Position numbers and translations under genes: made by a program. The notes under the pieces are model-generated. The model saw only the letters and a program-made list of their open reading frames with translations, made no database searches and was not told the origin of the DNA. Positions 7,568-41,627 of a DNA stretch of 64,000 nt are shown in pieces. How positions within the stretch are numbered: position 1 is the first letter of the stretch; every line of letters starts with the position of its first letter. The DNA lies in the NCBI GenBank assembly GCA_016932385.1, contig JAFGCY010000098.1, positions 1 through 64,000 of the forward strand. The letters run 5' to 3'. The DNA comes from a bacterium (GTDB taxonomy: Bacteria; 4484-113; JAFGCY01).

Positions 7568-7744
7568 CGGACCCTCCTGGGCTGCCGCGCAATTTGCTCC
7601 CGACCCGCGGCACCACCACAGCGATTATACCGTCATATTGTGATGCGCTTCACGGACAAAATGTAGCGCGGGTACAGGCTTGCCGCGGCTTTGTCTGGAA
7701 TGCGCCGGTTATGCCATTCGGGTGGCGAAAGGTTGCCGTTTGGG

Positions 7745-8344: not shown

Positions 8345-8507
8345 GGTGACCTCCCAGAGCCACATGCAGCATATGTTGATCACTACATTGTACTGCGCGT
8401 TTGTGCTGATTGCAGCAATTACCCGCGATAAACCACGTTTCTCGGTTATTGGACGTGCGGAACGTGCCGTTTTGTTTTAGAGCAGCGGACTTCCGGCCGG
8501 CAATCGG

Positions 8508-8957
8508 TCAGATCTTCTTGAACAGCTTGGCCAGGTAACGGTGCACATTGTGCGGGAAGCCGATCTTGGGCATGAACAGCAACGGGCAGCCGCTGACCGG
8601 CTCCATGTTGTGCTCCAGCGCCAATTGCTCGGTGTCGTCATTGAACGCTTCCAGGACCAGCCAAACATGCTTGATGCCGGCGAGGGCGACGTCCTCCAGC
8701 GCCTTGGGCGTCTTCTCGGTGCTGAGGATGATGATCGCGCTGTCCGCCGCCGGGCTGATCTCCACGGCCGAACGTACCGCCGGCAGGTCGCCGATCCATT
8801 CGGCGCTGGGATGCACCGGAATAAAGGCGGCATCGCGTCTGAAGTTCTTCAACTCCTCGAGCAGCGCAGCCGCGAAGCCCTTGCCGGTGCGCTTGAGCCC
8901 GTAATACGCCACGCGCTTCATGTTGTTGAGGAATTGATCCTGGTTCTTCGTGCCCAT
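8508..8957 (-). CDS. CoA-binding domain protein
   Basis: A 149-residue single-domain protein of the CoA-binding family (Rossmann-like, as in YccU and succinyl-CoA ligase alpha N-termini). The strand-turn VAYYGLKRTGKG near residues 16-27 and the VWLVLEAFND segment fit the fold. Family members are small cytosolic proteins of unclear role. GCxLLF near the C-terminus matches the typical GCPLLF end. A TAGAAT -10 box lies 21 bases upstream and AAGGCG may serve as ribosome site. It is divergent from the first 5'-nucleotidase gene. Confidence 0.78.
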   Translation of the reverse strand: MGTKNQDQFLNNMKRVAYYGLKRTGKGFAAALLEELKNFRRDAAFIPVHPSAEWIGDLPAVRSAVEISPAADSAIIILSTEKTPKALEDVALAGIKHVWLVLEAFNDDTEQLALEHNMEPVSGCPLLFMPKIGFPHNVHRYLAKLFKKI

Positions 8958-9066: not shown

Positions 9067-10602
9067 ATGTGCAGACTTGCCGCGCTGTGCTTGGTTGGAA
9101 TACTATTGGCGTGCAGTGCCGCCCGGGCCCAGGACGAACCCGCGCCGGAAGTTCTTAAACTGGGGATTATTCACACCAACGACATCCACGGGCACGTGCT
9201 GCCCTTTGACTTCGAAGGCAGGGAAGACTGGGGCGGTGCCGCGCGACTGGCGGCCGCGATCGCCGCAGTGCGCGCGGACCCGGAGTACGAATGGCTGTTG
9301 CTCGACGCGGGTGACGCCTGCCCGGGCATGCCGATCAGCGACGAGCAACGCTGGCTGCCGGTGCTGGACTGCATGAATACGATCGGTTACGACGCGATGT
9401 GCACGGGCAACGGCGAGTTCAGCTGGGGCCTGGCCCAGGCACGCGAATACCTCGCCGCCGCGCGGTTCCCCGTCCTCTGCGCCAACATTGCGGTGGCGGA
9501 GAGCGGCGCGCCGGCCTTTCCGCCTTATGCCGTTTTCCAGCGCGGGCCGTACCGGATCGGGGTGATCGGCCTGGTCCGCGAGTCGTTTACCCAGGACCTC
9601 TATTACAAGCTGGGCGACCAGGTCAGCTTCTGCCCGGTCGAGCCGGTCGCCATTGCGCTGGGCTACTACCTGCACTGGATCGGCTGCGACATCATCGTCG
9701 CGGTGACGCACCAGGGCCTGATCTACGACCTGCAATTGGCCCAGACCGTACCCGAGCTGAACGTGATCGTCGGTGGCCACAGCCATACGTTTATGGAGAA
9801 ACCGGAGCGGGTCGGTAACGCGATCGTGACGCAGGACGGCGAGTGGGCGAAGTCGCTGGGCGTGCTCAAGCTGGAGTTCGCCCGTCCGAATTCCACCGCG
9901 CCGTTCGCCCTGACCGCTTACAGCGAGGAGTTCATTCCCTTGGGGCCGGACCGGCCGGCGGATGCGCAAATCGCGGAGTTGGTCGAAGCTTACCGGCAGC
10001 AGTTCGAACAGGCGATGAGCGAAGTGGTCTGCACCAACGCGCGCGCGGTGGCCGTCGACAGCGTGCGCTACGAGGAGAACGCCTTCGCCGACCAGGTCGC
10101 CGACGCGCTTTTGGAAATCTCCGGCGCGGACTGCGTGCTGTTCACCGGCGGCAACTTCCAGGCCGCACTGTCGGCGGGAGAAGTGACGCTTGGCGATATC
10201 TGTACGGCGCTGCCGCTCGACCACCCGTTGCTCAGGGTCGAAGTCAGCGGAGCGAAGCTGCGCGAGATGCTGGCGTGGGCCGGTACGCAGTGCGGCCGCG
10301 CCTTCCCGCAGGTCGCCGGGATGCGCCTGTACTACATCGACGGACAGCTGGTCGATGCCAAGGTGGGCGGCCAAACACTGGATGACGAGGCTGTCTACAC
10401 GGTGCTGCTGATCGACTATCTGGCCTGTAATGTCGCCGAGTTTCCGCTGATAGAGGACCCGCTCGGACCCGCCGCGACCGGGCTCAAGCAGCGCACGGCC
10501 TTCATCGACTGGGCGCGGCAACGGCAGGTCCTGGAGATGGCCACCGACGGGCGGGTCGTCTTCGAGTGGGAGGAGATCGACCCTTATGAGCCGGCGGAAT
10601 AG
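9067..10602 (+). CDS. UshA-type 5'-nucleotidase paralogue with damaged active site
   Basis: A 511-residue exported protein with a signal peptide ending near ARA|QDE (a C at 17 makes a lipoprotein alternative possible). The N-terminal calcineurin-like domain has NDIHGH near 38-43, LLLDAGD, THQG and GGHSHT; the C-terminal 5'-nucleotidase domain has TGGNFQAAL and DHPLL. The motif that should read GNHEFDxG is GNGEFSWG (114-121): the histidine of the catalytic Asn-His dyad is glycine and the Asp is serine. The enzyme may therefore be weak or inactive on nucleotides. Start chosen at ATG after GGGAGG. A close paralogue with the intact motif follows 68 bp downstream. Confidence 0.88.
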   Translation: MCRLAALCLVGILLACSAARAQDEPAPEVLKLGIIHTNDIHGHVLPFDFEGREDWGGAARLAAAIAAVRADPEYEWLLLDAGDACPGMPISDEQRWLPVLDCMNTIGYDAMCTGNGEFSWGLAQAREYLAAARFPVLCANIAVAESGAPAFPPYAVFQRGPYRIGVIGLVRESFTQDLYYKLGDQVSFCPVEPVAIALGYYLHWIGCDIIVAVTHQGLIYDLQLAQTVPELNVIVGGHSHTFMEKPERVGNAIVTQDGEWAKSLGVLKLEFARPNSTAPFALTAYSEEFIPLGPDRPADAQIAELVEAYRQQFEQAMSEVVCTNARAVAVDSVRYEENAFADQVADALLEISGADCVLFTGGNFQAALSAGEVTLGDICTALPLDHPLLRVEVSGAKLREMLAWAGTQCGRAFPQVAGMRLYYIDGQLVDAKVGGQTLDDEAVYTVLLIDYLACNVAEFPLIEDPLGPAATGLKQRTAFIDWARQRQVLEMATDGRVVFEWEEIDPYEPAE

Positions 10603-10670
10603 GCTCGGGCGAGTTGAATTGATCCTCAAGCTGCTATGATGATTCCGGCGTTCCAGCCAGGAGGAATACG

Positions 10671-12356
10671 ATGCGCAGATTGATGCTTGCCGTTCTGTTT
10701 TTGCTTTTAGCGCTGTCCGCGGTTCACGCCCAGGACGAGCCCCAGCCCGAGCTGGAGATCCTGAAGCTGGGGATCATCCACACCAACGACACCCACGGGC
10801 ACTTGGAGCCGTTCAAGAACTGGGACACCGGCGAGGACAACTGGGGCGGGGTGGCCAAGCGCCGCGTCGCGATCCAGCGCGCCCGGGCCGATACCGACTA
10901 CTACTGGTTGGTGCTGGACGCCGGCGACGTCTTCCAGGGCACGCCGATCAGCAACCTGCTGACGGGCTTTTTGGATCTGGAATGCATGAACCAGATGGGT
11001 TACGACGCGATGTGCCTGGGCAACCACGAGTTCGACTTCGGCTATGAGTTGCTGCGCGGGCGCTTCAACGACGTCAACTTCGACATGCTCTGCGCCAACG
11101 TGATCGACCGCGAGCGCGGCGTGCCGGTCGCCAAGCCGTATACAATCCTCCGGCGCGGCGACTACCGCATCGGCATCATCGGCCTGACCACCGAGACACT
11201 GTTGAACGAGACGCACCCCTCCGCGCAGAAGAGCGTGGTGGCCTACCCGGCGCAGGCCGTCGCCAGCAGCCTGGCCAAGTACCTGCGCAGTGCGGGTTGC
11301 GACATCGTAATCGCGCTGGCGCATGAGGGCATCAACCGCGACCGCGCAATGGCCCAGGCCGTGCCGGAGCTGGACGTGATCGTCGGCGGGCATACACATA
11401 CCGTACTGACCGAGCCGGAGGTTTACGGCAACGTCGTCGTGACCCAGGACGGCGAATGGGGCAAGACGCTCGGCGTGCTGAAGCTGACGTTCATCCGCCC
11501 GGTGGGCGATCCGGACGCACGCTTCGAGCTGGCCGAGGCCAGCGAGGAGTTCGTGCCCCTGGGGCCCGATGCGCCTGAGGACGACGGGCTGGTGGCGTTC
11601 ATCGCCGACTACCAGCGGCGCTTCGAGGCCGAGATGGGCAAATTCGTCTGCGTCAGCGGCCAGGACTTCCCCGACGCCGAGGTCCGCTTGGCGGAGTGCG
11701 CGCTGGCCGACCTGATCTGCGACGCGATGCTGGGCCAGGTTGACGCGGACTGCGCGCTGTTCAACGGCGGCAACTTCCGTGCGCCGCTCTATGCGGGCGA
11801 CGTGAATTTCGGCGACCTGTATGCCGTGCTGCCCTATGACAACTTCATGATGAACGTGCCGCTGACGGGCGTTGAGCTGCGGGACGTGCTCAGCTACGCC
11901 GGCCAGCAGTACGGCGACGGCGGCTTCCCGCAAGTCGGCGGGATGAGCGTGGTCTACGTCGACATGCAGCTGGCGGGCTGCTTCATCGGCGAGAACGCGC
12001 CGACGGAATTCCAGATCACCTGGCACGGTGATACGCCGGTGGCGATCCCGATGGACGACTACGCCCAGGTGATCCTCGGCGAGACCGGCGAGATGACCTA
12101 TACGGTCAGCCCCGATGCGCCCTGGCATGTGCTCGACGACACGCGCGAGTACCGGCTGCTGACCAACGACTTCCTGGCGACGGGCGGCGACGGTTTTCCG
12201 CTGCACGAGGACCCCTACGGCGCGGGCTATACGGGACTGGAGCAGCGCGCGACGTTCGCCCTGTGGGCCAGCCAGCAGCGCGAGCTGACGAAGGAGACCG
12301 ACGGCCGCGTGCAGTTTATCTGGGAGAACCTGGAGAACCCGGGCTTGCGGGATTAA
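10671..12356 (+). CDS. UshA-type 5'-nucleotidase / 2',3'-cyclic phosphodiesterase-like protein
   Basis: A 561-residue exported metallophosphoesterase with a signal peptide cleaved near VHA|QDE. The metal and catalytic motifs are complete: NDTHGH, LDAGDVFQG, GNHEFDFG (117-124), AHEG and GGHTHT; the C-terminal 5'-nucleotidase domain contains NGGNFRAPL and LPYDNFM. It should hydrolyse nucleotides or related phosphoesters outside the cytoplasm. AGGAGG lies 5 bases before ATG. TATGAT at 10635-10640 (with TTGAAT 15 bases upstream of it) may give it its own promoter. It probably arose by tandem duplication with the preceding gene, the partner that kept the active site. Confidence 0.9.
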   Translation: MRRLMLAVLFLLLALSAVHAQDEPQPELEILKLGIIHTNDTHGHLEPFKNWDTGEDNWGGVAKRRVAIQRARADTDYYWLVLDAGDVFQGTPISNLLTGFLDLECMNQMGYDAMCLGNHEFDFGYELLRGRFNDVNFDMLCANVIDRERGVPVAKPYTILRRGDYRIGIIGLTTETLLNETHPSAQKSVVAYPAQAVASSLAKYLRSAGCDIVIALAHEGINRDRAMAQAVPELDVIVGGHTHTVLTEPEVYGNVVVTQDGEWGKTLGVLKLTFIRPVGDPDARFELAEASEEFVPLGPDAPEDDGLVAFIADYQRRFEAEMGKFVCVSGQDFPDAEVRLAECALADLICDAMLGQVDADCALFNGGNFRAPLYAGDVNFGDLYAVLPYDNFMMNVPLTGVELRDVLSYAGQQYGDGGFPQVGGMSVVYVDMQLAGCFIGENAPTEFQITWHGDTPVAIPMDDYAQVILGETGEMTYTVSPDAPWHVLDDTREYRLLTNDFLATGGDGFPLHEDPYGAGYTGLEQRATFALWASQQRELTKETDGRVQFIWENLENPGLRD

Positions 12357-12664
12357 CTTAAGTCAACAGCCGCGCGGGTTGCGCAGCTTTCGCTGATCGA
12401 CTTGCCTCCGCTAGCCAGAGTTGAATTAGCGAGCGGACAGCTGAGCTAACGGTGAGTTGCATCAGGCTGCAGTCGACTGCTCGCAGGCTGGGGACTTGAG
12501 TGCGATTGGCTGAGCGGTTGGTTCGGTCACGTTGTGAAGGTGGGGTTAACTAGAGCTTGCTTAGTTGATGAGTGCCTGCTCAGTGTAAGCCCATGGTATA
12601 CTTGCTATATTGCCTAGGTTGTTTGAAGGTTCGATTTTTGTTTTTAAAGTAGGTGGGAACGTAA
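12357..12664. other. Intergenic region at the GC-to-AT transition
   Basis: About 308 bp without a gene. Composition falls from GC-rich to AT-rich across it. TATACT and TATATT near 12596-12611 are possible -10 boxes, and AGGTGGGAA lies just before the next ATG. No repeat or attachment site flanking the island was found by eye. Confidence 0.5.
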
Positions 12665-13057
12665 ATGGATGCTAGCTACGATTCAATGCAAAACCTAAGC
12701 GATGAGTTGCTTGTGCTCAATAAAGATCTTAAGGCGATTAATGGTGATTCGTATGCGACAAGCGAACTCAGACAAGCCCCAGGATTCGTAAGTGATGATT
12801 ATGTCTTATTTCTGTTTGCGGTGCTCGGATCATTTGTTGGCAGCGCTCTCGACGAAATCATAATGAGTCAGACAAAAAAAGCTGTTACACTTGCAACGAC
12901 AAGGCTCAAGCAGTTCTGTGAAATTATTAGACGTCGGAAGTCTGACGGAGTTGATACATATATCCCGCTGGAGATCCAGACTAAAGTCCACTTTAGAACC
13001 GAGGAAGATGATTTAACAGTTATCTATATTGAATTCTACAGTATCAAGTTTGGATGA
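12665..13057 (+). CDS. Small membrane protein, first gene of AT-rich island
   Basis: A 130-residue protein with a polar N-terminus (1-43), one hydrophobic segment (about 45-62, YVLFLFAVLGSFVGSAL), then a basic helix and a beta-rich C-terminus. I do not recognise the family. AGGTGGG precedes the ATG at 7 bases. Its reading frame ends where a second frame, overlapping by 29 bp, continues with compatible composition to 13211, so the true protein may be about 180 residues with a frameshift near 13030-13050. Codon use is AT-rich, unlike the flanking genes, suggesting transfer. Confidence 0.6.
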   Translation: MDASYDSMQNLSDELLVLNKDLKAINGDSYATSELRQAPGFVSDDYVLFLFAVLGSFVGSALDEIIMSQTKKAVTLATTRLKQFCEIIRRRKSDGVDTYIPLEIQTKVHFRTEEDDLTVIYIEFYSIKFG

Positions 13058-30068: not shown

Positions 30069-33000
30069 ATGCACGTATTCGCGGTGAAGCTGAGGTTTAC
30101 TGGTATCAGCCTCTTGCTTGGTGGGTTGTTGATCAGCGGTTGCGGCGGCGGTGCGCAAACGCTGCCGCTGGCGGCGCCGGCCGCGGACGGCTTCGGCCTG
30201 GTTCTCGATCCCGACCCGCAATTGGGGGAATTGCCGGCGACGGCGCTGGAACTGAAAGTTGCGGCAGCGGCGGACCAAGCCGTTGTCAGCGTCCAGGCCA
30301 CCGGCACCGCGTCCTTGAAATACTTTTACGGCAGTGTGAATTACGATCCGGCCTGCTATACGCCCGTCGCGGTCGAGCATCGGCCGGTGCTGGGCGGCGA
30401 GGCCGGTGACCTGTTGACATTGGATATCTCCGACGCGGCCGGCGTGGTCGAGCTGGGCCAGCTGGTCGCCCATCCCGATCGCGCGCCGGGTTACACCGGC
30501 ACGGCGACACTGGTGGAGATCGCTTTCGATTGCCGGCCCTTCACGCCGCGCGCGGCCAGCGCGCCCCCGCAGACCGCGGCCTCGGCCACGCGCCTGAACT
30601 GGGATCCCGAGCAGAAGCAGCTCTCCTGGGGGTACTACTGCCAGGGCGACTATAACCAGGACGGGCTGGTGTCCGTCCACGATCTCACGCCACTCGGCGT
30701 CCACTATCTCGAAGAGGGTCCGTTCGACGAGGACTCGGCCCTGGCGGTGGTCGACGGTAACTCCGACGGCCTGGTGACCGTCAACGACATCACGCCGATC
30801 GGCCAGAATTTCAGCTGCAACGTCGAGGGCTATGTGGTGTTCGCCGATGGCGATCCGGGCCAGCTGCCGCCGGCCAATGACTCGCCCGCGACGGTTGACC
30901 CGTACGATTACGTTCCCTTCTCCGCGGCCACCGGCGACAAGCAAGTCGAGCGGCTGGGCTTCGCCCGCGACTATCCAGAGCTGTCGCCCGACGTCATCGT
31001 CTGGGTGCGCCCGGTGGGGGAGGATTTATTCGGCACCCCCAGCTGGCCGCAGATTCCCGGCCTGGGCATCTGGCAGGTTACCAACATTTCCAGCTTCGCC
31101 ACCGCGCCCGGCGGTCCGGACAACACGCTGCTGGAGGTCGACGGGCTTCCCGCGGTCTGCTATCGCTCCACCTCGCCGGCCCAACTGGTCTACCAGCGCG
31201 CGCTCGACCCGGTCGGCAATCAGTGGGGCAGTGAGGTGGTCGTGGACGCCGGCGGCGATCAGGGCCATTTCTGCTCGATGCGGATCGTGGCCGGCAATCC
31301 GGCGATCGCCTATTACGATTGGTCGGCCCAGGACCTGAAATACTGCCGCGCTAACGACGCGCTCGGCACCACCTGGGCCCTGCCGGTGACCATCGCGTCC
31401 ACCGGCAACGTGGGCTACAACTGCAAGCTGATCGTGGCCAACGGCAATCCCGCGATCGCCTACCAGGACCTGACGGACTACTCCGTGAAATTCGTCCGCG
31501 CCAGTAACGGCGTTGGCAGTTCCTGGAATGCACCGGTGACAGTCGCCAATAACGGAGCGCCGCTGCCGCCGGGTACGGGCACGTACATCTCGGCCGCGTT
31601 GGTCGGCGTGAATCCGGCGATCGCCTACTTCGACAACAACTCCGGCGACCTGCACTTCATCCGCGCCGGCGATGTCAACGGCCAGACCTGGGGCAGTTAC
31701 GTCAAGGCCAGCCAGTCCGTCGGAGACAGCGGCCGCTACTGTTCGTTGTTCATGGTCGACGGGCGGCCGGCGCTGGCCTATCTGGACGACGGCGCGCTGG
31801 CCTATGTCCGCGCCGCCGACGCGCCGGGCAACGCCTGGGGCGCGGAGATCACCATCGACAGCGGCCCGTTTAACGCCGCGGGCGCCCTGGGCCCGAGCCT
31901 GTGCGTCAACAACGGCAAGCCGGCGCTCAGCTACTACTCCGGCACGACGGCGCACGACCTGATGTACGCGCGCGCGGTCGATGCCGCAGGCGCCAACTGG
32001 GCCGCGCCCTACAGCCTCGACGGGCCGGACCAGGTCGGCTCCTGGAGCTGCCTGACCAACATCGGCACCAATCCCGCGATCAGCTATTACGACGAGACCA
32101 ACGACGACCTGAAGTTCGCGATCCTGGTCAACGCCAACAACCAGGCGCCGACGGCCCAGCTGGCGGTAGATAAAGCGAATGCCAAGGTTGGCCAGCACTT
32201 CGAGTTCAACGCGTCCGCCAGCACCGACGGCGACGGCGCGATCGTGCTTTACGAATGGGACTGGGAGGACGACGGTGTCTTCGAGCAGTCCAGCGGCACC
32301 GATCCGATCGCGGTCCATGGTTACGAAACCGCTGGCGCTTACACGCCCCACGTGCGCGTGACCGATAACGACGGCGGCCAGTCGTCCGCCTCCGTGGCGG
32401 TCGTGGTCGCGCCGAACGAGCCGCCGGAGGCCGGCCTGACCGCCACGCCGACGCGCGGCAATCCGCCGTTCACGATCAGCTTCGATGCCTCGGGCAGTTA
32501 CGATCCCGACGGCACGATCATTAATCACGAGTGGGACGGCGACGGCGACGGCCACTGGGACGCCGCCACGGACAACGTGCCGTACTGGAGCTGGGTGTGC
32601 ACCGAGCCCGGCGAGTTCGAGGCCCGAGTCCGGGTCACCGACGACAGCGGCGACTTCGGTTTCGACACCGTGCTGTACAGCGGCAACGTCGGGCCGATCG
32701 CGATCGGCACGGCCACGCCGGACACCGGCAGCGCCCCCTTCAGCGTGACCTTCGATTCAACCGGCAGCCATGACCCCGACGGCTCGATCGATTCCTCGTC
32801 CTGGGACATTCACGATGACGGCACGATCGAGCACACCGCATCAGGCGTCGGCACCTGGACGACGACGATGATCTGGGCCGGCGCGGTCAAGGTCCGGCTG
32901 CGCGTCCAGGACAACGAGGGCCTGACCGGCTCGATGCTGCTCACGGTCAACAGCACCGGCGGCTGGCACCTTTCCACGCTGGACAGCGACGACGATGTGG

Positions 33001-34034
33001 GCTGGTACAACTCGCTGGCGCTCTGCAACGGCAAGCCCGGCGTCAGCTATTTTGACTACACGAACGGTGCCTTGAAATACATCCGCGCGCAGGACGCTTA
33101 CGGTTATGCCTGGTACCAGTCGCAGAGCCTCGGCACGATTGTCGACACGGCGAGCTACGCCTGCTATGGCACTTCGCTGGCCTGGGTCAACGGCACGCGC
33201 GCGGCGATCGTCCAAAGCGGCTATCACCCGAGCTATCCCAACCGCCATTACCTGCTGGCCAGCAACGTCGACGGCAACGCCTGGAACCCGTTCACCGCGA
33301 TCACATCCGGCGTCGGCGCCAAACCGGACCTGCAGGTCGTCAACGGCAATCCCGCCTATGTGGCCTACGACGGCTACGATCTGACGATTACCCGCGCCAG
33401 CGATACCACCGGCACGGCCTGGAATACGCCGGTGACGATTGCGTCGAGTGTCGGCTACTGGTCCAGCAGCACATGTGCGCTGGCGATTGTCGGCGGCAAT
33501 CCGGCGGTGGCCTACTGCCAGGCCAACGGCAACATGAGCCTGTGGTATGTGCGCTGCGGCGGTCCCTACGGCGTTGACTGGACCACTCCGGTACTGATCG
33601 ACGACGTCGGCGATCCCGGCGAGACGGTTGCCCTGGCGATGGTCAACGGGCGGCCGGCGGTCGCCTATGTCGCGACGGAGAGCGGTGGCGGCGGTTTCGA
33701 GATCCGTTACAAGCGCGCTGGTGATGACACGGGCTCGATCTGGCCCAGCGGTTATGTGTCGGTACTGACCGACGGCCGCGAGGTGGCCGGCCTGGGTATC
33801 GTCAACGGCAATCCGGCGATCGGCGGGCGCACTTGTACGAACGCCAACGTGGTGTACCTGCGGGCCGGCGACGCCAACGGCAACACCTGGCCGGCGGCGA
33901 CGGTGGTGGACAACAGCGACGCCAACCTCGGTTACGGCTCCCACCAGTGCGACATGCTCGTGATCAACGATCATCCGGCGATCAGCTACTGCCACAGCGT
34001 GGATTCGGCATTGAAATACGCAGTCTGGGAATAG
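30069..34034 (+). CDS. Giant surface lipoprotein, paralogue of the preceding gene
   Basis: A 1321-residue lipoprotein with lipobox ISGC and the same order of parts as its neighbour. The cohesin-like domain has FYGSVNYDPACYTPVAV and GTATLVEIAF. The dockerin-like loops are near 194 and 229. A block of VRAxDAxG..W repeats follows, then three PKD domains from about 690 (YEWDWEDDG, EWDGDGDG), then a second repeat block ending LKYAVWE. Both paralogues end in the same residues. GGGAGCAGGA precedes the ATG and TATAAA about 30 bases upstream may be its -10 box, so it could be expressed separately from the upstream copy. Confidence 0.88.
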   Translation: MHVFAVKLRFTGISLLLGGLLISGCGGGAQTLPLAAPAADGFGLVLDPDPQLGELPATALELKVAAAADQAVVSVQATGTASLKYFYGSVNYDPACYTPVAVEHRPVLGGEAGDLLTLDISDAAGVVELGQLVAHPDRAPGYTGTATLVEIAFDCRPFTPRAASAPPQTAASATRLNWDPEQKQLSWGYYCQGDYNQDGLVSVHDLTPLGVHYLEEGPFDEDSALAVVDGNSDGLVTVNDITPIGQNFSCNVEGYVVFADGDPGQLPPANDSPATVDPYDYVPFSAATGDKQVERLGFARDYPELSPDVIVWVRPVGEDLFGTPSWPQIPGLGIWQVTNISSFATAPGGPDNTLLEVDGLPAVCYRSTSPAQLVYQRALDPVGNQWGSEVVVDAGGDQGHFCSMRIVAGNPAIAYYDWSAQDLKYCRANDALGTTWALPVTIASTGNVGYNCKLIVANGNPAIAYQDLTDYSVKFVRASNGVGSSWNAPVTVANNGAPLPPGTGTYISAALVGVNPAIAYFDNNSGDLHFIRAGDVNGQTWGSYVKASQSVGDSGRYCSLFMVDGRPALAYLDDGALAYVRAADAPGNAWGAEITIDSGPFNAAGALGPSLCVNNGKPALSYYSGTTAHDLMYARAVDAAGANWAAPYSLDGPDQVGSWSCLTNIGTNPAISYYDETNDDLKFAILVNANNQAPTAQLAVDKANAKVGQHFEFNASASTDGDGAIVLYEWDWEDDGVFEQSSGTDPIAVHGYETAGAYTPHVRVTDNDGGQSSASVAVVVAPNEPPEAGLTATPTRGNPPFTISFDASGSYDPDGTIINHEWDGDGDGHWDAATDNVPYWSWVCTEPGEFEARVRVTDDSGDFGFDTVLYSGNVGPIAIGTATPDTGSAPFSVTFDSTGSHDPDGSIDSSSWDIHDDGTIEHTASGVGTWTTTMIWAGAVKVRLRVQDNEGLTGSMLLTVNSTGGWHLSTLDSDDDVGWYNSLALCNGKPGVSYFDYTNGALKYIRAQDAYGYAWYQSQSLGTIVDTASYACYGTSLAWVNGTRAAIVQSGYHPSYPNRHYLLASNVDGNAWNPFTAITSGVGAKPDLQVVNGNPAYVAYDGYDLTITRASDTTGTAWNTPVTIASSVGYWSSSTCALAIVGGNPAVAYCQANGNMSLWYVRCGGPYGVDWTTPVLIDDVGDPGETVALAMVNGRPAVAYVATESGGGGFEIRYKRAGDDTGSIWPSGYVSVLTDGREVAGLGIVNGNPAIGGRTCTNANVVYLRAGDANGNTWPAATVVDNSDANLGYGSHQCDMLVINDHPAISYCHSVDSALKYAVWE

Positions 34035-34052
34035 CGCCGCGGGCAGGACGAA

Positions 34053-34086
34053 GCCGGCGGGTGGAGTCAGGTTCCACACCGCCGGC
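34053..34086. terminator. Strong hairpin between convergent genes
   Basis: Stem of 8 bp (GCCGGCGG/CCGCCGGC) plus 5 bp (GTGGA/TCCAC) separated by one bulged base, lying between two convergent lipoprotein genes. No clear T tract on either side, so it is a candidate bidirectional or Rho-assisted terminator. Confidence 0.45.
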
Positions 34087-34127
34087 AGCATCCCCAGGGC
34101 AGTCCCCGGCAGGTCTGCGCTCAGTAA

Positions 34128-36572
34128 TTAAGGTGGAGGTGGTTCGTCGTACTGTGTGCCCGTGATTGCATACTCATCTCCCAGCGGTACCGTGATCGGC
34201 CCGAAGACCGCCAGGTCGTTGTCGCCGCCGTCCCAGGCCGTCACCTCACGGATGACCATCACCCAGTATTCGCCCGCGGTCAATTCGATGAAGTTGAGGA
34301 CTTGCGGCACCCCGTCCAAGGGCGCCCCGGTCGTGTGCGTGTCCAGCGGCACATCGCCGATGTCCGTGGCCGCGAAATCGTAGAGGCGGACCTCGGTGGG
34401 CATGTCGGTTGTCGCAAACCCGCCCGTGTTGATCGTTACCGCTACGCTCAGCGTATGCGTATCTTCCGGGCCGATATTAATGGTTACCGCCGCTGAATCG
34501 GTGGCCGGCGGCGTGCCGTCATCGGTGACGCGCAGCTGGGCGGTCGTGTTCCAGACCGGTGCATGATCGTAGACATGCGTCGCTGTCGGCGTGGTGCCGT
34601 AATCCTCCCAGCCGGCGCCCTCGCCGAAATCGAACTCGTATTTCACAATGGTTCCGTCCAGATCGAAGCTGGCGCTGGCATCGAATTCGACCGTCAACGG
34701 GGGCAGCTCGGCGCTGGTCGGATTGGCGGCCAGGATTGCACTTGGCGGCAGGCCCGAAGTTATCAGCCGTACCTCGCGCGCCCAGTATTTCTCGGCCGGA
34801 TCCAGCGCGGCGTTCCATAACAAGTCTGCGTTGATGAGGACGAAGTCACTCGGCAGCAAGCTTGATGGTACTAGATCGCTGTCGTCTTCACCAACGAAGT
34901 TGGAATCCTCGGAGACGAGGACGGACAGCTCGTCAAGGTGTATCCAGTTGTTGTAAAGATCGCGAGTGTGGACGGCGGTCAGGTCCAGTACTCCGCTCGC
35001 TTCGTTCCACTCGGCGATCCGCCCGTAGACCTGGCGCGAATTTGGCTGGCCGTAATTGTCTCGATCAACCAGGCGCTCCAGCCGCCGGTCGGAGGTCGCC
35101 AGCCACTCCGCGTCCGCCAGTTGCGCCTCGTCGGCGTACTCCTGTCCGGCGTCGTCGTCGCCGTCGTTGTCCATGCTGACGACGGAATCCAGGTGGTTCA
35201 ATCGGACAGTCGTTTCGACTGGATCGCCGATGTCCTGCTGGGTCGTGGTGACGGTGGTGAAGTACCCGCCATCGGGATTCTCGCTCAGCTCGATCGCGAT
35301 CGCCAGGTCGGTGATGTCCGTATCGTCGCGCAGGCGGAACGGAATGACCGTGGTCTCGTGCTCGATGGCGATCGGCGGGGCCGCGGAGCTGTACTTGTCG
35401 CCCTTGGGCGCGCCGCTGTCCAACTCGAAGGTCGGTGCGTACATCACCAGCAGGGCCAGCGCCTGGTCGTGCGGCAGTTCATAGAAATTCGCGGTCGGGG
35501 TGTTCTCGCCGGCGGAGGTGCCGATGGCCGCCAGGTTGGGGATATCGCCCGGGGCGATCCGCCGCAGGATCTCGAACGGATCGACGACCTTCATATAACA
35601 GCGGCCGCTGTCTTCCAACGGACCGAACTCGCCGCTGCCGTCCAGGTCGAACAGGGTCAAGCCGTCGATCGCCAGCTGCACCCGTAGGTCAGGCGTATCA
35701 GGCAGAGCCGTCTTGAGGCTTTCGATGCCGCTGCGGCCAGTGGGATCTACCGGTGCCACCGACCACTCGTCCAACAAGTCGGCATCCAATTCAACCACAT
35801 ACTTCGGTGGCAGCTTGTCGCGGAAGATCGCATCCTCGCGCCGGATCGTAGCCAATGCGCCGATCGGGGAGGGCTCGACAACGCCGTTGCGGTAAACGTT
35901 GTAGCCAAAAATTCGCCCGCCGAAGTTCTGGCCAATCGGCGTGATGTCGACGACGTTCACTTCGCCGTCGTGGTTACCGTCAACCCAGTACAGCGTGTCG
36001 TCGAAGCTGCCTTCGTAGGCGATGCCGAAGTTCTGGCCGATCGGCGTCAGGTCGTTGACGCTGACCAGGCTGTCAAAGTTGTAATCGCCGTTGTTGTTTT
36101 CCGTCCATTCCAGGCGGACGCGCCCGCCGCCCAGATCGATGACCGCCAGGTCCAGCACGGCACTCCGGAAAACGTTGGGCGGCCCGTTGACGGTGCGTTC
36201 TCCGGCGACCGTTCGCAGCACAACGGAGACCGGGTTACCTGTGTAACCGTCAACGGGCCGAATGCCGATCTCCGGCCCAGCCGGCGCATTGCCGACGATG
36301 TGGATGATGTGGTCATCCCCCTCCCATTCTTCTCTGCCGACCACACGCGCCACGGGTATCGCCAACCGGATGAATTGCCCTTCAGCCGGAATGGCGCTGA
36401 ATGTCAGGCGATAGCTGTATGGATCCAAGAGCGTCAGGCTGATGCCGTCGGTGCTGGAATCGTCGATCGGCTCCAACTCGAAGCCGTCTGTCCGCGACGG
36501 GTCCAAGGTTTGCCCGCCGCATCCGGCTGCCAGCAGCAGCACCAACAGGATTGCGCCGAATCGGTATCTCAT
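34128..36572 (-). CDS. Lipoprotein with dockerin-like module and PKD domain
   Basis: An 814-residue lipoprotein (lipobox LAAGC). A beta-rich N-terminal domain (about 30-150) is followed by two dockerin-like calcium loops, GDYNFDSLVSVNDLTPIG near 161 and DGNHDGEVNVVDITPIG near 200. A long middle region is not recognised; one PKD domain (FDASASFDLDGTIVKYEFD) lies in the C-terminal third. The start follows GGGAGGAG by 8 bases, and that site lies inside the last codons of the upstream regulator gene, 2 bp apart, so the two are translationally coupled. That pairing of a transcription factor with a surface lipoprotein is unusual. Confidence 0.85.
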   Translation of the reverse strand: MRYRFGAILLVLLLAAGCGGQTLDPSRTDGFELEPIDDSSTDGISLTLLDPYSYRLTFSAIPAEGQFIRLAIPVARVVGREEWEGDDHIIHIVGNAPAGPEIGIRPVDGYTGNPVSVVLRTVAGERTVNGPPNVFRSAVLDLAVIDLGGGRVRLEWTENNNGDYNFDSLVSVNDLTPIGQNFGIAYEGSFDDTLYWVDGNHDGEVNVVDITPIGQNFGGRIFGYNVYRNGVVEPSPIGALATIRREDAIFRDKLPPKYVVELDADLLDEWSVAPVDPTGRSGIESLKTALPDTPDLRVQLAIDGLTLFDLDGSGEFGPLEDSGRCYMKVVDPFEILRRIAPGDIPNLAAIGTSAGENTPTANFYELPHDQALALLVMYAPTFELDSGAPKGDKYSSAAPPIAIEHETTVIPFRLRDDTDITDLAIAIELSENPDGGYFTTVTTTQQDIGDPVETTVRLNHLDSVVSMDNDGDDDAGQEYADEAQLADAEWLATSDRRLERLVDRDNYGQPNSRQVYGRIAEWNEASGVLDLTAVHTRDLYNNWIHLDELSVLVSEDSNFVGEDDSDLVPSSLLPSDFVLINADLLWNAALDPAEKYWAREVRLITSGLPPSAILAANPTSAELPPLTVEFDASASFDLDGTIVKYEFDFGEGAGWEDYGTTPTATHVYDHAPVWNTTAQLRVTDDGTPPATDSAAVTINIGPEDTHTLSVAVTINTGGFATTDMPTEVRLYDFAATDIGDVPLDTHTTGAPLDGVPQVLNFIELTAGEYWVMVIREVTAWDGGDNDLAVFGPITVPLGDEYAITGTQYDEPPPP

Positions 36573-36574
36573 CT

Positions 36575-38104
36575 CTATAACTCCTCCCATGATTTCGCGC
36601 CGGAGTCCAACAGCTTTGGATCATCGATGCAATCCCTGATCAGATTGCAAAGGATCTTTACCCCTTCCTCGATCTCGCTCTCGCTGGACCGCGAATAGGC
36701 CAGGCGCAGGGCCGCCGTATCCTTACGCGAAGGCAGGCAGAACGGCGCCGGCAGGAAATCGACTCCCAATTCGCGGCTCATCGACAACAGCGGGACGGAA
36801 AGGACCTTAGGCGGTAGCTTCACCCAGATCGTAAACCCTCCCTTGGGACGATGGAAACTGCAACCCGCTGGCAGGTGCTCATCAAGCACCCGGCACATCG
36901 TATCGCGTCGTTTCCGGTATTCCTTATTGGTCTTGCGCAGGTGTTTGATGAAGTGCCCGCGCACGATGAACTCATATAACAGGGCCTGTTGAAAGTAGGC
37001 TTCGCTGGATTCCGCCCCCAGTTTCGCGTAAACCAGCGTCAAGGCAAACGGCGACGGCGCGCAGATCCAGCCGATCCGCAGGCCGGGCAGCAGGCACTTG
37101 CTGAACGTGCCGATGTAGATCACATAGCCGCCCGCATCCAGCGTCTTCAGCGGCGGCGGCGTGGGGCCGTCGAAGCCCAGCCAGCGCGCCCAGTCATCCT
37201 CGATGATCGGCACGCGGAAACGGATCGCCAAGCGCAGCAGGTGTTCGCGCCGCGCGGTCGACATACAGATACCGGTGGGGTTGTGGAAGGTCGGAACGGT
37301 GATTACGGCCTTGATGTTGTCGCGGGTCAGGACCGTGCCCAGGTAATCAGTGTCCATGCCCTCGTCGTCGACCGGAATCGGCACGTATTCGATGCCCTTG
37401 GCGATCAACAGGTTCATGATGCCGGTGTAGGTCGGTGATTCGATGGCGACCTTCTGGCCGGGCTTGAGCAGGCGGTCCAGTACCAGGGTCAGCGCTCGCT
37501 GGAAGCCGCCGGTCAGCAGGATGTCGTTCTCCGTCTCCGCCATCGGAATGCCGTTGAGCGCCATCTCCTTCTCCAGGTGGTCGATCATCGGCAGGTAGCC
37601 CTGCGGGTGACCGACATCGAAGAAGAACTCCTTGGGGTACCACAGCATGTTCGTGGTGACCTGCTTGATGCGCGCGAAGGGGAATAGCCCGGGGTCCGGG
37701 CTGGCCATCGTGAATTTGATCAGCTTGCCGGCCTTGCTCTTGCTGGGGGGGACGAGGAAAAAGTCGCTGTTGAAGCCGTAGGGCTCCCAGCGCATCGGCG
37801 GCTGGTTCTCGATGCTGGTTTCCATTTCGTCGCGCGTGCCGAGATTGCTGCCGATGACGACGGAGGGCAGGGGGGTGACATACGTGCCGCTGCCGTGCCG
37901 GGTTTCGATGATGTTCTCGGCCGACAGGTTCTCGTACGCCGTATGCACGGTCTTGCGCGACACGTCGAGTTGCTTGGCGAGTTCGCGCACGCTGGGAAGC
38001 TTTTCCCCCGGAGCCAGCAGGCCGTCGCGAACGAGTTTGATCACCTGGCGGCGGATCTGGTCCTGGATCGGCTCTTTGCTGCTTCTGTCGATATGTATGA
38101 TCAT
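36575..38104 (-). CDS. MocR-type regulator (GntR helix-turn-helix plus aminotransferase domain)
   Basis: A 509-residue MocR/PdxR-family transcription factor. An N-terminal GntR winged helix (about 10-75: EPIQDQIRRQVIKLV, LPSVRELAKQLDVSRKTVH) is joined to a class-I aminotransferase-fold domain that binds PLP; the Schiff-base lysine is in GTFSKCLLPGLRIGW. Such regulators control PLP- or amino-acid-linked genes, often the divergent neighbour. Here the divergent gene encodes a PLP-dependent cysteine-desulfurase-like enzyme. The TAG stop overlaps the ribosome site of the following lipoprotein. No clear leaderless box or Shine-Dalgarno site is seen at the ATG. Confidence 0.9.
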   Translation of the reverse strand: MIIHIDRSSKEPIQDQIRRQVIKLVRDGLLAPGEKLPSVRELAKQLDVSRKTVHTAYENLSAENIIETRHGSGTYVTPLPSVVIGSNLGTRDEMETSIENQPPMRWEPYGFNSDFFLVPPSKSKAGKLIKFTMASPDPGLFPFARIKQVTTNMLWYPKEFFFDVGHPQGYLPMIDHLEKEMALNGIPMAETENDILLTGGFQRALTLVLDRLLKPGQKVAIESPTYTGIMNLLIAKGIEYVPIPVDDEGMDTDYLGTVLTRDNIKAVITVPTFHNPTGICMSTARREHLLRLAIRFRVPIIEDDWARWLGFDGPTPPPLKTLDAGGYVIYIGTFSKCLLPGLRIGWICAPSPFALTLVYAKLGAESSEAYFQQALLYEFIVRGHFIKHLRKTNKEYRKRRDTMCRVLDEHLPAGCSFHRPKGGFTIWVKLPPKVLSVPLLSMSRELGVDFLPAPFCLPSRKDTAALRLAYSRSSESEIEEGVKILCNLIRDCIDDPKLLDSGAKSWEEL

Positions 38105-38720
38105 GTCCGTCTAGCTCAAGTATGCCATAGCCGGAGATCAAAGTGTGGGACATTAGGCTGTCAATCTCAGGTGACACTATTCAGCCGGTAATTCTTGGTC
38201 AGGTCAGCCCGATAGCTCGTTTTACAGACTAGCTCTACGCAAAATGGTTGCAGGTCACCGGCGCGATTCTTTATCTCGCTGGTAGTGTCACTTGCAGGTT
38301 CCGTGAATCAGCTGGTTTGGGGTGACATATTTGCGCTGCCGGCATTGACGGAACGCCGGGCAGCGCGGCTGTTGCCTGCCCGCGTGCGGGTGTCACGACC
38401 GCCGTATTTCACTGCCGGTTGTTTCTCGTGTCAGTAACGGTGGTCTCTAAACGGAAGGATAACCTATATTCTATCGCCCTTTAACTTTGAAACTGGCTTC
38501 TCATGTAATGATTAACGCAAGCGTGTCGGCTTGTCTACAAGCGATTTATCTGAGACCGGAACAACTGTAGCAGATAGGATGAATCGTGTAACTGGCCTAC
38601 AGCGGTGAAGAATGCCACCCTTAACTTGATCGGCGGAAGTATGGGCGATATGTGCAATCCGTAGGTTCTTGGTCCCTTGCTTCGAGACTACACGATCGCC
38701 CAGACTCGCCAGACGGATCT
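38105..38720. promoter_or_regulatory. Structured divergent regulatory region with GTGACA repeats
   Basis: About 616 bp without a convincing gene between a MocR regulator and the desulfurase-like cassette. It has a 9-bp inverted pair, GTGACACTA at 38171-38179 and TAGTGTCAC at 38283-38291, and further half-sites GTGACA at 38322 and TGTCAC at 38391. A strong hairpin spans 38333-38366 (8+3 bp stem with one bulge) and a smaller one 38379-38390 (CCCGC/GCGGG). TATATT near 38466 may be a -10 box. These are plausible operator sites for the MocR protein or another regulator; their role is inference. Confidence 0.45.
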
Positions 38721-39866
38721 ATGAGTAACAGGCGGAATCAAGTTTACTTGAATAATGCGGCAAGTTCATGGCCGCGTGCGCCCGGTGTTGTGGATGCAGT
38801 CACCGCAACGATGAGCGCCCCGCCTAGTCACCCAGGCCGGGCTGTGTCCACATCCGTGGATGTGATTACGGAATGCCGCCAACGGCTGGCCGCGCTGTTG
38901 CATGCCGGCGATCCCACCCGCATCGTCCTGACCACCCATGCAACCCAGTCCCTGAATTTCGCCGTTCTAGGCCTGGGGCTTGCTGCCGGCGATCTCGTGG
39001 TGACGACGGTTACCGAGCACAATTCAGTCCTGCGGCCGTTGCAGCACCTGGCCGATCGCGTCGGCATCCGGATCGCCTATGTTCCGTTGGACGAAGAGGG
39101 CGCGCTGGATCAAAAGGTGTATCAGGAGCTTCTGGATGACAAGCCCCGGCTGGTGGCGGTGAACCATGCCAGCAACGTGACCGGCCGCGTCAATCCGGTG
39201 GCACCCCTGTTCGACTGGGCTAAGCAAGCTGGTGCGATCACGTTGCTCGATGCTTCCCAGTCAATGGGGCTGATTCCGGTCGACGTCAGTGAATTGCAGG
39301 CTGATCTGGTGGCGATCACTGGGCACAAAGGCCTACATGGGCCGACGGGTACCGGTGCGCTATTCGTCGCCGCCGACGTGGAACTGGAGCAGGTCTTCGT
39401 TGGCGGAACGGGCGTGCGTAGCGATCTGGTCCGGCATCCGGCGGATATGCCGGTCAGGCACGAGGCTGGTACCTACGACATGCCGGCGTTTGCCGGCCTG
39501 GCCGCGGCGTTGCGCTGGGTGGAATCGCGCGAACCGGAGTACTGCGCGCGGGAGCAGGAGCTGGGGCGGCATCTACGGGCAGGCTTGCAGGCCCTTTCCG
39601 GTGTAACGCTGTTTGACGCGCAGGCGGATGTTGAGCGCACGGCGATCGCCTCGTTCCGTATCGGCGGCTGGACGGTCGAGGAAGCCGGTTTCGCGCTGAA
39701 TGCAAGCTATGGGATCGATTGCCGCACCGGTTTGCACTGCGCGCCGTTGATCCACCAGGCGATTGGCAGCGCACCGGACGGAACTATCCGGTTCAGCGCA
39801 TCCGGGTTTAACACAGCCGACGACATTGAGCAGGCCCTGGCGGCGGTGAGGCATTTGGCATCGTGA
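38721..39866 (+). CDS. Cysteine-desulfurase-like PLP enzyme (class V aminotransferase)
   Basis: A 381-residue PLP enzyme of the class V aminotransferase fold, closest in motifs to the cysteine desulfurase family that opens with VYLNNAASSWP. The PLP lysine is in ITGHKGLHGPTG and the pattern RTGLHCAPLIH near the C-terminus places a cysteine where SufS-type desulfurases and selenocysteine lyases carry the catalytic one. It may mobilise sulfur or selenium from cysteine. I chose ATG (MSNRRNQVYLNN) as start because upstream residues do not match the family; a GTG 69 bases earlier is possible. Its TGA overlaps the GTG of the next gene, so the two are coupled. Confidence 0.85.
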   Translation: MSNRRNQVYLNNAASSWPRAPGVVDAVTATMSAPPSHPGRAVSTSVDVITECRQRLAALLHAGDPTRIVLTTHATQSLNFAVLGLGLAAGDLVVTTVTEHNSVLRPLQHLADRVGIRIAYVPLDEEGALDQKVYQELLDDKPRLVAVNHASNVTGRVNPVAPLFDWAKQAGAITLLDASQSMGLIPVDVSELQADLVAITGHKGLHGPTGTGALFVAADVELEQVFVGGTGVRSDLVRHPADMPVRHEAGTYDMPAFAGLAAALRWVESREPEYCAREQELGRHLRAGLQALSGVTLFDAQADVERTAIASFRIGGWTVEEAGFALNASYGIDCRTGLHCAPLIHQAIGSAPDGTIRFSASGFNTADDIEQALAAVRHLAS

Positions 39867-40192
39867 AGATCATCGATATCAAAAAGGTTGAGGATTGCTT
39901 TGACGGCAGCAGTGTGTTCAGCTACTGGTTTGACAGCCAGTGGACCGAAGCAGCGATCGGTGGACTGAGCGCCTTGGGCCGGTTGGAGTACTTCGCCGAC
40001 TTTCCGCGGCCGTTATTTAGGCTGACTACACCGGAGGGCCTGCACGTCAAGGGCGTAAAGGGCGAGGATAACTGCCGCGTGATTTATCCCCAGAGCAATC
40101 GAGCGGAGATCAGACAGGCATTTGAGCGGCATTTCGCCGCCCGTCAGCAGAACAAACCAGGAGGTGATCAAAAATCGGCTACTCAGAAGTAA
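39863..40192 (+). CDS. Small conserved-looking protein, second in desulfurase cassette
   Basis: A 109-residue cytosolic protein starting at GTG, overlapping the desulfurase stop by 4 bp. It contains two cysteines, in VEDCFDGSS and EDNCRVIYP, an aromatic-rich centre (LGRLEYFADFPRPLFR) and a charged helical tail. I do not recognise a named family. In sulfur-relay operons a small partner of this kind often accepts persulfide sulfur from the desulfurase; the conserved-looking Cys in DNCRVIYP could do so, but that is inference from position only. No membrane segment or signal peptide. Confidence 0.65.
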   Translation: MKIIDIKKVEDCFDGSSVFSYWFDSQWTEAAIGGLSALGRLEYFADFPRPLFRLTTPEGLHVKGVKGEDNCRVIYPQSNRAEIRQAFERHFAARQQNKPGGDQKSATQK

Positions 40193-40224
40193 TGTGCAGT
40201 CTTAATACCTAGCGGAGGATCAGC

Positions 40225-40416
40225 ATGGGAGCAAAAATCGTTAAATTGTGGGAGTTTGTGGCCTCAAAAGCGGACCTACAAACCAAAATGCGCGTTGCAG
40301 TGAAAAGCGGCATACCGTCAGCGACCGCCGCGAGCGCGGATGACTCACCTGAAAACATCACGAAAATGAAGGATGCGATTAAGGAAATCATGGGCGAAAC
40401 CGCGCCAAATGTCTAG
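40225..40416 (+). CDS. 63-residue protein of desulfurase/V4R cassette
   Basis: A 63-residue protein with GGAGG 7 bases before ATG, in the same direction and closely spaced with its neighbours. It is basic in the first half, acidic and helical in the second (SPENITKMKDAIKEIMG), and has no cysteine or membrane segment. I do not recognise it. It could be a small regulatory subunit or, less likely, a peptide substrate modified by the cassette; the lack of Cys and a hydrophobic core argue against a typical modified-peptide precursor. Confidence 0.6.
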   Translation: MGAKIVKLWEFVASKADLQTKMRVAVKSGIPSATAASADDSPENITKMKDAIKEIMGETAPNV

Positions 40417-40464
40417 CGGCGTACATACACTTAGGTTTACAACAAGGACCACAAGGAGTTGAGT

Positions 40465-41001
40465 ATGGCTGTTATAAAGAAAACGGAGATTGAACTGGTT
40501 CACAAGTTCAATTCTCAAACCTGCCGTCACACGCTGAATGGACACACTTCAGTCTTGCACTGCCATCATTATGCAACGTTGTACAGCCGGCTGGCGGACG
40601 ATTGCGGCATGCTGGACGGCCGGAAACTGTTATTCGAATGCGCCGAGGATTCGTTCCTGGAAGTCCTGTGCTCCTATTACGCGGAGCAGGGTATCGACTC
40701 CATCGAAGACCGCATCGCGATCGCTGAGCAGTATTACGCCGTGACAGGCCTGGGCAAGATGAATATTAAATGCGCCGGCGCTGAGTCCGGCGAGGTCGAG
40801 TTGCTGCACAGCCATGTTGACGAGGGCTGGATCAAGAAATGGGGCAAGCGGGATTCCGCCGTCAACTTCATTACCTGCGGCTATATCGCCGCCGTGTTCA
40901 GTGCGGTGTTCGATCACCCGGCGCGTTCCTACACCGTTGCCGAGTTTGCCAGTCTGGTCAAAGGTGACGAACGCTCTCGCTTCAACGTCGTGCTCGCTTA
41001 G
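40465..41001 (+). CDS. V4R-like domain protein 1 (His/Cys-rich)
   Basis: A 178-residue protein. The C-terminal part (FITCGYIAAVFSAVF ... SLVKGDERSRFNVV) resembles the end of V4R (4-vinyl reductase type) small-molecule-binding domains, which usually finish with a Cys-containing helix and a KGD..CRF strand. The N-terminus is rich in possible metal ligands: CRHTLNGHTSVLHCHHY (about residues 17-33). I infer a metal- or tetrapyrrole-type ligand-binding sensor or carrier. The start is the ATG 6 bases after AGGAG. It lies 20 bp before a second V4R-like gene, and both are probably co-transcribed with the desulfurase. Confidence 0.6.
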   Translation: MAVIKKTEIELVHKFNSQTCRHTLNGHTSVLHCHHYATLYSRLADDCGMLDGRKLLFECAEDSFLEVLCSYYAEQGIDSIEDRIAIAEQYYAVTGLGKMNIKCAGAESGEVELLHSHVDEGWIKKWGKRDSAVNFITCGYIAAVFSAVFDHPARSYTVAEFASLVKGDERSRFNVVLA

Positions 41002-41021
41002 GGAATTCAAGGAGAATAACT

Positions 41022-41627
41022 ATGGCTATTGATCGAAAAAAAGTGATTGCTGACATGGCAAAGGTTGAAGTGCTCGGCAATGCGGATGGACTGATTCCCG
41101 GCTTCAACGTGTTTGTCACCCAATTACCGGCGGCATTCTGGAACAGGTTTGCCGAGCGGCTGACCCGACAGGTCAGCGAAGATCTGCTGGAAGCGGCCGA
41201 GTGGCTGCTGGTCAACGCGGCGCACGAGTGCGGCTACCACACGGGCTACGGCATTATCACCTCCGAGGAATGGAAGGCCATCGTCGGTCCCATGGTGGAG
41301 AAGGTGCCGGATGACATCCTGCACGGTGCCTTTGCTGTCTTCACCGCCTGGGGTTGGGCCAAGAGCGAAGTTATCGAGCTGGTGCCCAACGAGCGGATGG
41401 TGGTGCGCGCGTATGACTACTACGAGTCGGACGTCGTATCCTACGGCGCGTCAACCAAGTTCAGCGCTTACATGATTCGCGGTGTCTGCGCCGCCTTCAT
41501 GGATCTGGCCTACGGTGGCGACTACGATCCGACGGGCGAGACCGGTTTGCGTACCTTCCAGTGCCAGCAAACCAAAGGTATCGAATGCGGCGACGAGTAC
41601 GGAGAATTTGTTATCACGCGGGCGTAA
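41022..41627 (+). CDS. V4R-like domain protein 2
   Basis: A 201-residue protein that ends with a helix containing RGVCAAF and the strand QTKGIECGDEYGEFVI, similar in layout to V4R domains and to the preceding gene product. A HECGYHTGYG segment near residues 67-76 holds clustered His and Cys that could bind a metal. No transmembrane helix or signal peptide. AGGAG precedes the ATG at 9 bases. It is the last gene before a hairpin terminator. The pair may form a heterodimer, since V4R domains are often dimeric, but that is inference. Confidence 0.6.
   Translation: MAIDRKKVIADMAKVEVLGNADGLIPGFNVFVTQLPAAFWNRFAERLTRQVSEDLLEAAEWLLVNAAHECGYHTGYGIITSEEWKAIVGPMVEKVPDDILHGAFAVFTAWGWAKSEVIELVPNERMVVRAYDYYESDVVSYGASTKFSAYMIRGVCAAFMDLAYGGDYDPTGETGLRTFQCQQTKGIECGDEYGEFVITRA

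Follow-up and report, generated by a model that had tools for sequence, protein, structure and literature searches.

What is a cysteine desulfurase doing in an operon whose last two genes encode V4R-like proteins? The question is raised by a 64,000-nt stretch of bacterial DNA (here called the window; contig JAFGCY010000098.1, positions 1 to 64,000), in which five genes on the plus strand form a compact cassette. In order they encode CD, a class-V (SufS-type) pyridoxal-phosphate (PLP) cysteine desulfurase homologue of likely 381 amino acids (38721..39866); S109, a 109-amino-acid protein (39863..40192); S63, a 63-amino-acid protein (40225..40416); V4R1, of 178 amino acids (40465..41001); and V4R2, of 201 amino acids (41022..41627). 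The original prediction had joined these genes to a divergent MocR-type regulator and proposed that the cassette delivers sulfur or selenium to a metal or tetrapyrrole-type cofactor bound by the V4R pair. A reading-frame check of the window found all six genes open and in the predicted order, with the tight spacing and the single GTGA overlap, in which the start of S109 overlaps the stop of CD. The CD reading frame extends further 5′, to GTG 38652, but ATG 38721 is the more likely start because relatives begin there. V4R1 starts at ATG 40465, and ribosome-binding sites are clear for S63 (GGAGG), V4R1 (AAGGAG) and V4R2 (AAGGAG).

The five genes are a conserved unit. Eleven loci contain all of them (the window, L080, L082-L085, L094, L095, L097, L098 and L100), and L076 and L093 hold four cassette genes each and are truncated by the contig end. 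Two gene orders were found, CD-S109-S63-V4R1-V4R2 in the window, L082-L085 and L097, and S63-V4R1-V4R2-CD-S109 in L080, L094, L095, L098 and L100, with neighbouring genes of the five-gene loci overlapping or only a few bases apart. The full cassette is present in six lineages: Planctomycetota, Spirochaetes, KSB1, Acidobacteriota/Aminicenantes, Syntrophomonadaceae (Firmicutes) and the window's own phylum. A lack of co-occurrence in such a neighbourhood survey had been named beforehand as grounds for refutation, and it did not arise.

The unit is built from two separable modules, CD with S109 and S63 with the V4R pair. Among 385 genomes, the first S109 relatives came from two, where each gene immediately follows one for a TIGR01977-like desulfurase and has no V4R gene as neighbour, and the V4R1 profile gave no match in either genome; the CD-S109 pair without V4R is thus known from two genomes. 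One of these pairs lies in L006 (2795-10763, genome G112), ~6.5 kb from genes for a YedF selenium-metabolism protein and a radical-SAM-like protein. A neighbour of CD-S109 in L007 was considered as SelD-like and set aside, as it had no Pfam match. V4R1 relatives were first found in six other genomes among the 385. Five of the loci were examined: four encode V4R1 and V4R2 as a single fused protein of ~420 amino acids, and the fifth, L016, carries a 63-amino-acid gene, V4R1 and V4R2 in the same order as the window.

A scan of the genome collection with a five-sequence alignment and the HCxH motif yielded 80 V4R-pair loci spanning, going by record titles, many phyla, among them Acidobacteriota, Aminicenantes, Spirochaetes, Planctomycetota, KSB1, Syntrophomonadaceae, Synergistaceae, Bacteroidia, Myxococcota, Cyanobacteria, Desulfococcaceae, Heimdallarchaeota and others. 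CD adjoins the V4R genes in 12 of 17 loci of the HCHH[YF]A type and in 1 of the 63 others (Fisher p 1.2e-9, uncorrected for kinship). The pairwise distances of the five cassette proteins correlate (r 0.75-0.95, permutation p 5e-4), most strongly for CD with S109 (r 0.95). Such a correlation shows joint inheritance and not contact, because common ancestry suffices to produce it. Across cassettes, identity to the window is 64-81% for V4R2, the best conserved member, and 39-60% for CD.

CD matches Aminotran_5 (243 bits, E 5e-72), and its nearest curated family is TIGR01977 (345.7 bits, below the cut-off of 377). The four other cassette CDs compared score 312-341 bits, also below that cut-off. Against the curated families of the known desulfurases the window's enzyme falls well short (SufS 224.6 of 475 bits, NifS 137 of 531, IscS 102 of 643, CsdA 139 of 494). 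The catalytic Cys in RTGLHCAPL, which had been recognized at the outset as belonging to a PLP enzyme, and the PLP Lys in GHKG are retained in every one of the 12 full-length cassette copies, that of the window among them. CD can be regarded as a class-V cysteine desulfurase homologue that is predicted to release sulfur. A housekeeping function is unlikely, because the window's genome has further desulfurase-like genes besides CD. An operon in a Sericytochromatia genome (L044) comprises V4R1, V4R2, S109 and a desulfurase of another class (IscS 460 bits, NifS 434 bits, TIGR01977 just 165), and its S109 homologue is fused at the C-terminus to a two-cluster ferredoxin (10510-12797). The exchange of the enzyme class argues that the system may require desulfurase activity rather than one specific protein.

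S109 has 27 members, found next to CD or V4R genes. It had been described as a protein with two Cys; both are present in the window, but only Cys12 is conserved, and it is the sole residue invariant in all 27. The AlphaFold model (pLDDT 92.4) shows a strand, Cys12, a strand, a helix, four strands and a helix. A fold search of the PDB returned an unrelated best match at E 0.047 with no sulfur carrier among the matches listed, a sequence search against solved structures gave no match, and the 27 members hit no Pfam family beyond chance. Judged from these comparisons, S109 is a new protein family. The S109 proteins encoded next to CD are homologous to those that accompany fused V4R pairs (hhalign 99.25%). 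In 24 further loci another protein of ~100 amino acids has one invariant Cys at the same location; as a relative of S109 this family, which lies downstream of fused V4R pairs, was not accepted, since the alignment of Cys to Cys reached only P 0.012. S109 was not found elsewhere in five V4R genomes without an adjacent copy, in a search run without a positive control. S63, also a new protein family, lies directly upstream of V4R1 in 25 loci and is similar to the C-terminal end of a weakly MglB/roadblock-like protein of Myxococcota (L018/L020, L061/L062). It is probably an adaptor of the V4R pair. Scans of Pfam, NCBIfam and PHROG found no Pfam family, PHROG or meaningful NCBIfam match for the window's S109, S63, V4R1 and V4R2.

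The V4R1 model (pLDDT 95.5) shows a predicted V4R fold: its top PDB matches are the sensor domains of MopR/PoxR/DmpR (E 7e-10, TM 0.76-0.78), followed by Bet3/TRAPPC3 and MJ1460. V4R2 aligns with V4R1 over the V4R core (hhalign probability 98.4, E 4.8e-15) and by this homology is a V4R protein too; direct BLAST of V4R1 with V4R2 found nothing, and the homology is visible only in the profile comparison. Neither window protein matches Pfam V4R (PF02830), while the relatives in L017 (37.6 bits) and L016 (V4R2, 31.7 bits) pass the cut-off of 31. The last two proteins had been called V4R-like from the sequence, with a structure of another kind as the stated refutation; the structural check supported the call. 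The clustered His/Cys noted earlier is a family motif, HC[HNQ]H, in V4R1, H32-C33-H34-H35 in the window. The conserved residues of V4R1 are H32-C33-x-H35, D46, H117 and K125. V4R2 has the motif H68-x-C70, with C70 present in 79 and H68 in 71 of the 80 loci, neither residue having been used in the search. Two C-terminal positions are Ser in desulfurase-associated V4R1 and Cys in most others, and this type is therefore a distinct subtype.

V4R pairs also occur in two archaeal loci, L064 (9469-11130) and L049 (222-3285), one from Heimdallarchaeota and one from an 'archaeon', which add S63, a small Cys protein and a 464-amino-acid protein (no Pfam match, L049). Another operon type, in Myxococcota and others (L045, L050-L054, L057, L060, L081), often begins with TPR and ParA-like genes and continues with genes for a 192-amino-acid weakly MglB-like protein, the two V4Rs as a fusion, and a small protein in which a single Cys is invariant.

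A signal-transduction context, which the original prediction had missed, emerged from the operon neighbours. Among 113 neighbours scanned were receiver domains (10), DUF4388 (5), SpoIIE (4), MCP (4) and Hpt (3). Cassette-type loci carry REC-DUF4388 (L076, L080, L098), MCP (L097, L099), a CheA hybrid (L099), hybrid kinases (L087, L090), a REC-HD protein (L087), FIST (L090), a sigma-54 response regulator and a kinase (L100), and Cache-HAMP-SpoIIE (L083 and its close relative L082). These neighbours indicate a sensory or relay role, and a sensory function of the cassette is probable. In L098 a sensory-type iron-only hydrogenase gene (7395-8825) stands directly 5′ of S63-V4R1-V4R2-CD-S109.

Taken as a whole, we propose that the cassette encodes a signalling complex built on the V4R pair, to which a dedicated desulfurase supplies sulfur by way of Cys12 of S109, a reading to which we give a probability of about 0.4. 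The complex would be cytosolic and have its own sulfur supply. CD would take sulfur from cysteine as a persulfide onto the RTGLHC cysteine and hand it to Cys12 of S109, which would be a new type of acceptor holding the position that SufE/SufU has relative to SufS. Dedicated sulfur delivery is the natural reading because the catalytically intact CD co-diverges most tightly with S109 and its single conserved Cys, and transfer from CD to S109 seems somewhat more probable than otherwise. To this extent the sulfur part of the earlier idea stands. The sulfur would then charge, or help to build, a ligand or cofactor site of V4R1/V4R2, the likeliest sites being Cys33 (HCxH) of V4R1 and Cys70 (HxC) of V4R2; this onward step to the V4R cysteines is tentative. 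The state of the site might be relayed through the S63 adaptor to response regulators, chemoreceptors, kinases or phosphatases, whose operons usually host the cassette. That widespread signalling complexes use a V4R heterodimer sensor sulfur-charged by a dedicated desulfurase and a non-SufE acceptor is a doubtful generalization at present. So is its corollary of a receptor that is loaded with persulfide or a sulfur cofactor and feeds into chemotaxis, two-component and SpoIIE phosphatase pathways.

Several observations weigh against this proposal. S109 matches no known sulfur carrier (SufE, SufU/IscU, TusA, DsrE) in sequence or fold. Four loci of the HCHH[YF]A type (L087, L090, L096, L099) lack an adjacent CD, so the desulfurase is not obligatory. 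The invariance of HCxH in V4R1 is in part a product of the search, since this motif was used in the genome scan, although relatives found without it also carry HCxH. The V4R cysteines could simply bind Zn or another metal. Finally, no signalling gene adjoins the window's own cassette, which is in this respect an exception.

Some of the same evidence can be read as cofactor assembly, with CD and S109 building a metal-sulfur or Fe-S cofactor, which the V4R pair would keep or transfer to a partner enzyme, and with the signalling neighbours secondary. The conserved His/Cys in both V4R proteins, the S109-ferredoxin fusion of L044, the Fe-hydrogenase gene in the L098 operon and the largely anaerobic look of the CD-bearing lineages (inferred from record titles) all fit such an assembly. 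It is nevertheless unlikely, as V4R1 resembles small-molecule sensor domains and not a scaffold, the cassette has no IscU-, SufB- or NifU-type scaffold or carrier, and the recognisable operon partners are mostly signalling proteins. Alternatively, CD turnover or the persulfide state of S109 may itself signal how much cysteine or sulfane sulfur is available, with the V4R pair reading S109 by contact and never being sulfurated. A shared reporter of this kind would be expected to occur with CD alone or with V4R alone, and S109 does both: the CD-S109 pair occurs alone, and S109 accompanies V4R without CD in L087, L090 and many fused V4R pairs. The conserved C33 of V4R1 and C70 of V4R2 are left unexplained by it, and we consider it improbable too.

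More distant explanations start from the V4R fold or from selenium. V4R is homologous to Bet3/TRAPPC3 (PMC2253512), and the V4R pair might belong to a TRAPP/roadblock-type scaffold or positioning complex to which the desulfurase is a lineage-specific add-on. The ParA-like, TPR and weakly MglB-like proteins of the Myxococcota operons and the archaeal loci L049 and L064 agree with this; but the roadblock resemblance is weak (E 0.04), and a desulfurase cassette with co-varying divergence in six lineages is too regular for a stray add-on, which makes a scaffold quite unlikely. Selenium delivery, with CD as a selenocysteine lyase supplying the V4R pair, was the other half of the original prediction and has been weakened until it is very improbable. 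CD does have an SclA-like score of 263 bits, SelD is encoded in the window's genome and in G112/G126, and YedF lies ~6.5 kb from the CD-S109 pair of G112. That score is, however, far under the cut-off of 525, and SelD is above cut-off in only 4 of the 11 cassette genomes, the window's included, and not in the other 7. This minority weakens a selenium role and does not exclude it, because many assemblies may be incomplete. The SelD gene of the window's genome (G000:C41:6064-6963), above cut-off, contains one in-frame TGA and probably encodes a selenocysteine-containing protein.

The regulator gene (38104-36575, minus strand) encodes GntR and aminotransferase I/II domains and is PdxR-like (316 bits, cut-off 320). 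Its membership of the system was not borne out: no MocR gene lies beside any of the 80 other loci, and we therefore rejected it as cognate regulator and excluded it from the conserved set. The intergenic region has no direct repeats and just two 12-nt inverted pairs, and a promoter scan stayed at chance level. The cassette lies between lipoprotein-like genes on one side and a polysaccharide cluster on the other. At 30069-36590 the window encodes large lipoprotein-like proteins with dockerin-like DxNxDGxVxVxDLTPIGQNF repeats and PKD-like stretches. The G+C content of the cassette is 0.53-0.62, as against 0.60-0.66 in the flanks, and V4R1 had no match in nine other genomes of the window's phylum; horizontal acquisition is therefore probable. 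The plasmid and viral collections searched gave no match. A phage or defence system was rejected, since no PHROGs matched and the PADLOC matches reflect only the general desulfurase fold (SspA/DndA).

The cassette resembles several described systems in part. TIGR01977 desulfurases, of the E. faecalis EF2568 type, are the nearest curated family to the cassette CDs (312-346 bits), from which all those tested differ in falling below the cut-off. As in SufS-SufE, SufS-SufU and CsdA-CsdE, a class-V desulfurase adjoins a small protein with a conserved Cys. In contrast to these systems, the cassette has no scaffold genes, CD is far under the SufS, CsdA, IscS and NifS cut-offs, and no solved structure matches S109 significantly in fold or sequence. 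V4R1 shares the sensor-domain fold of the phenol sensors MopR/PoxR/DmpR, but V4R1 and V4R2 are single-domain proteins without the sigma-54 AAA and HTH parts, and these V4Rs form a stand-alone pair or a double-V4R fusion with the HCxH motif. The cassette type also has Ser at the two C-terminal positions where other members retain Cys, positions that lie in the Zn-site region of MopR. In MsvR, a methanogen V4R regulator, the redox state of cysteines controls activity (PMC3729527); MsvR is, however, a single protein with its own DNA-binding domain, and no desulfurase, S109 or S63 is reported for it. The cyanobacterial pap operon slr0144-slr0151 also combines V4R-domain and Fe-S (2Fe-2S) proteins in one operon, with no desulfurase reported (PMC9880817, PMC4853703). 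It was discarded as a match, as the other V4Rs of three cyanobacterial genomes, probably of the pap group, have no HCxH and reach only 16-28 bits against the V4R1 profile. TRAPPC3/Bet3 and the Asgard TRAPPC3-like proteins have the superfamily fold in common with V4R1; they are vesicle-tethering or ligand-binding proteins without a desulfurase or S109 (PMC2253512, PMC10933270).

In the open PMC literature no paper was found that joins V4R with a desulfurase or describes the cassette; subscription papers lay outside this search. V4R sensors and desulfurases are each known; what was found in no open paper is a conserved system that joins them with S109 and S63, for which a function is proposed here. 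Whatever the mechanism, a multi-gene cassette in at least six lineages and a confidently modelled S109 fold without significant PDB match make a clear target. If the proposal is true, four unnamed protein families would be united in one assayable system, and V4R proteins, from which the eukaryotic trafficking subunit Bet3 probably descends, would gain a testable biochemical role. The cassette would then represent a new sensor-loading route in bacteria, in which a private desulfurase and a new sulfur-acceptor family feed a V4R pair.

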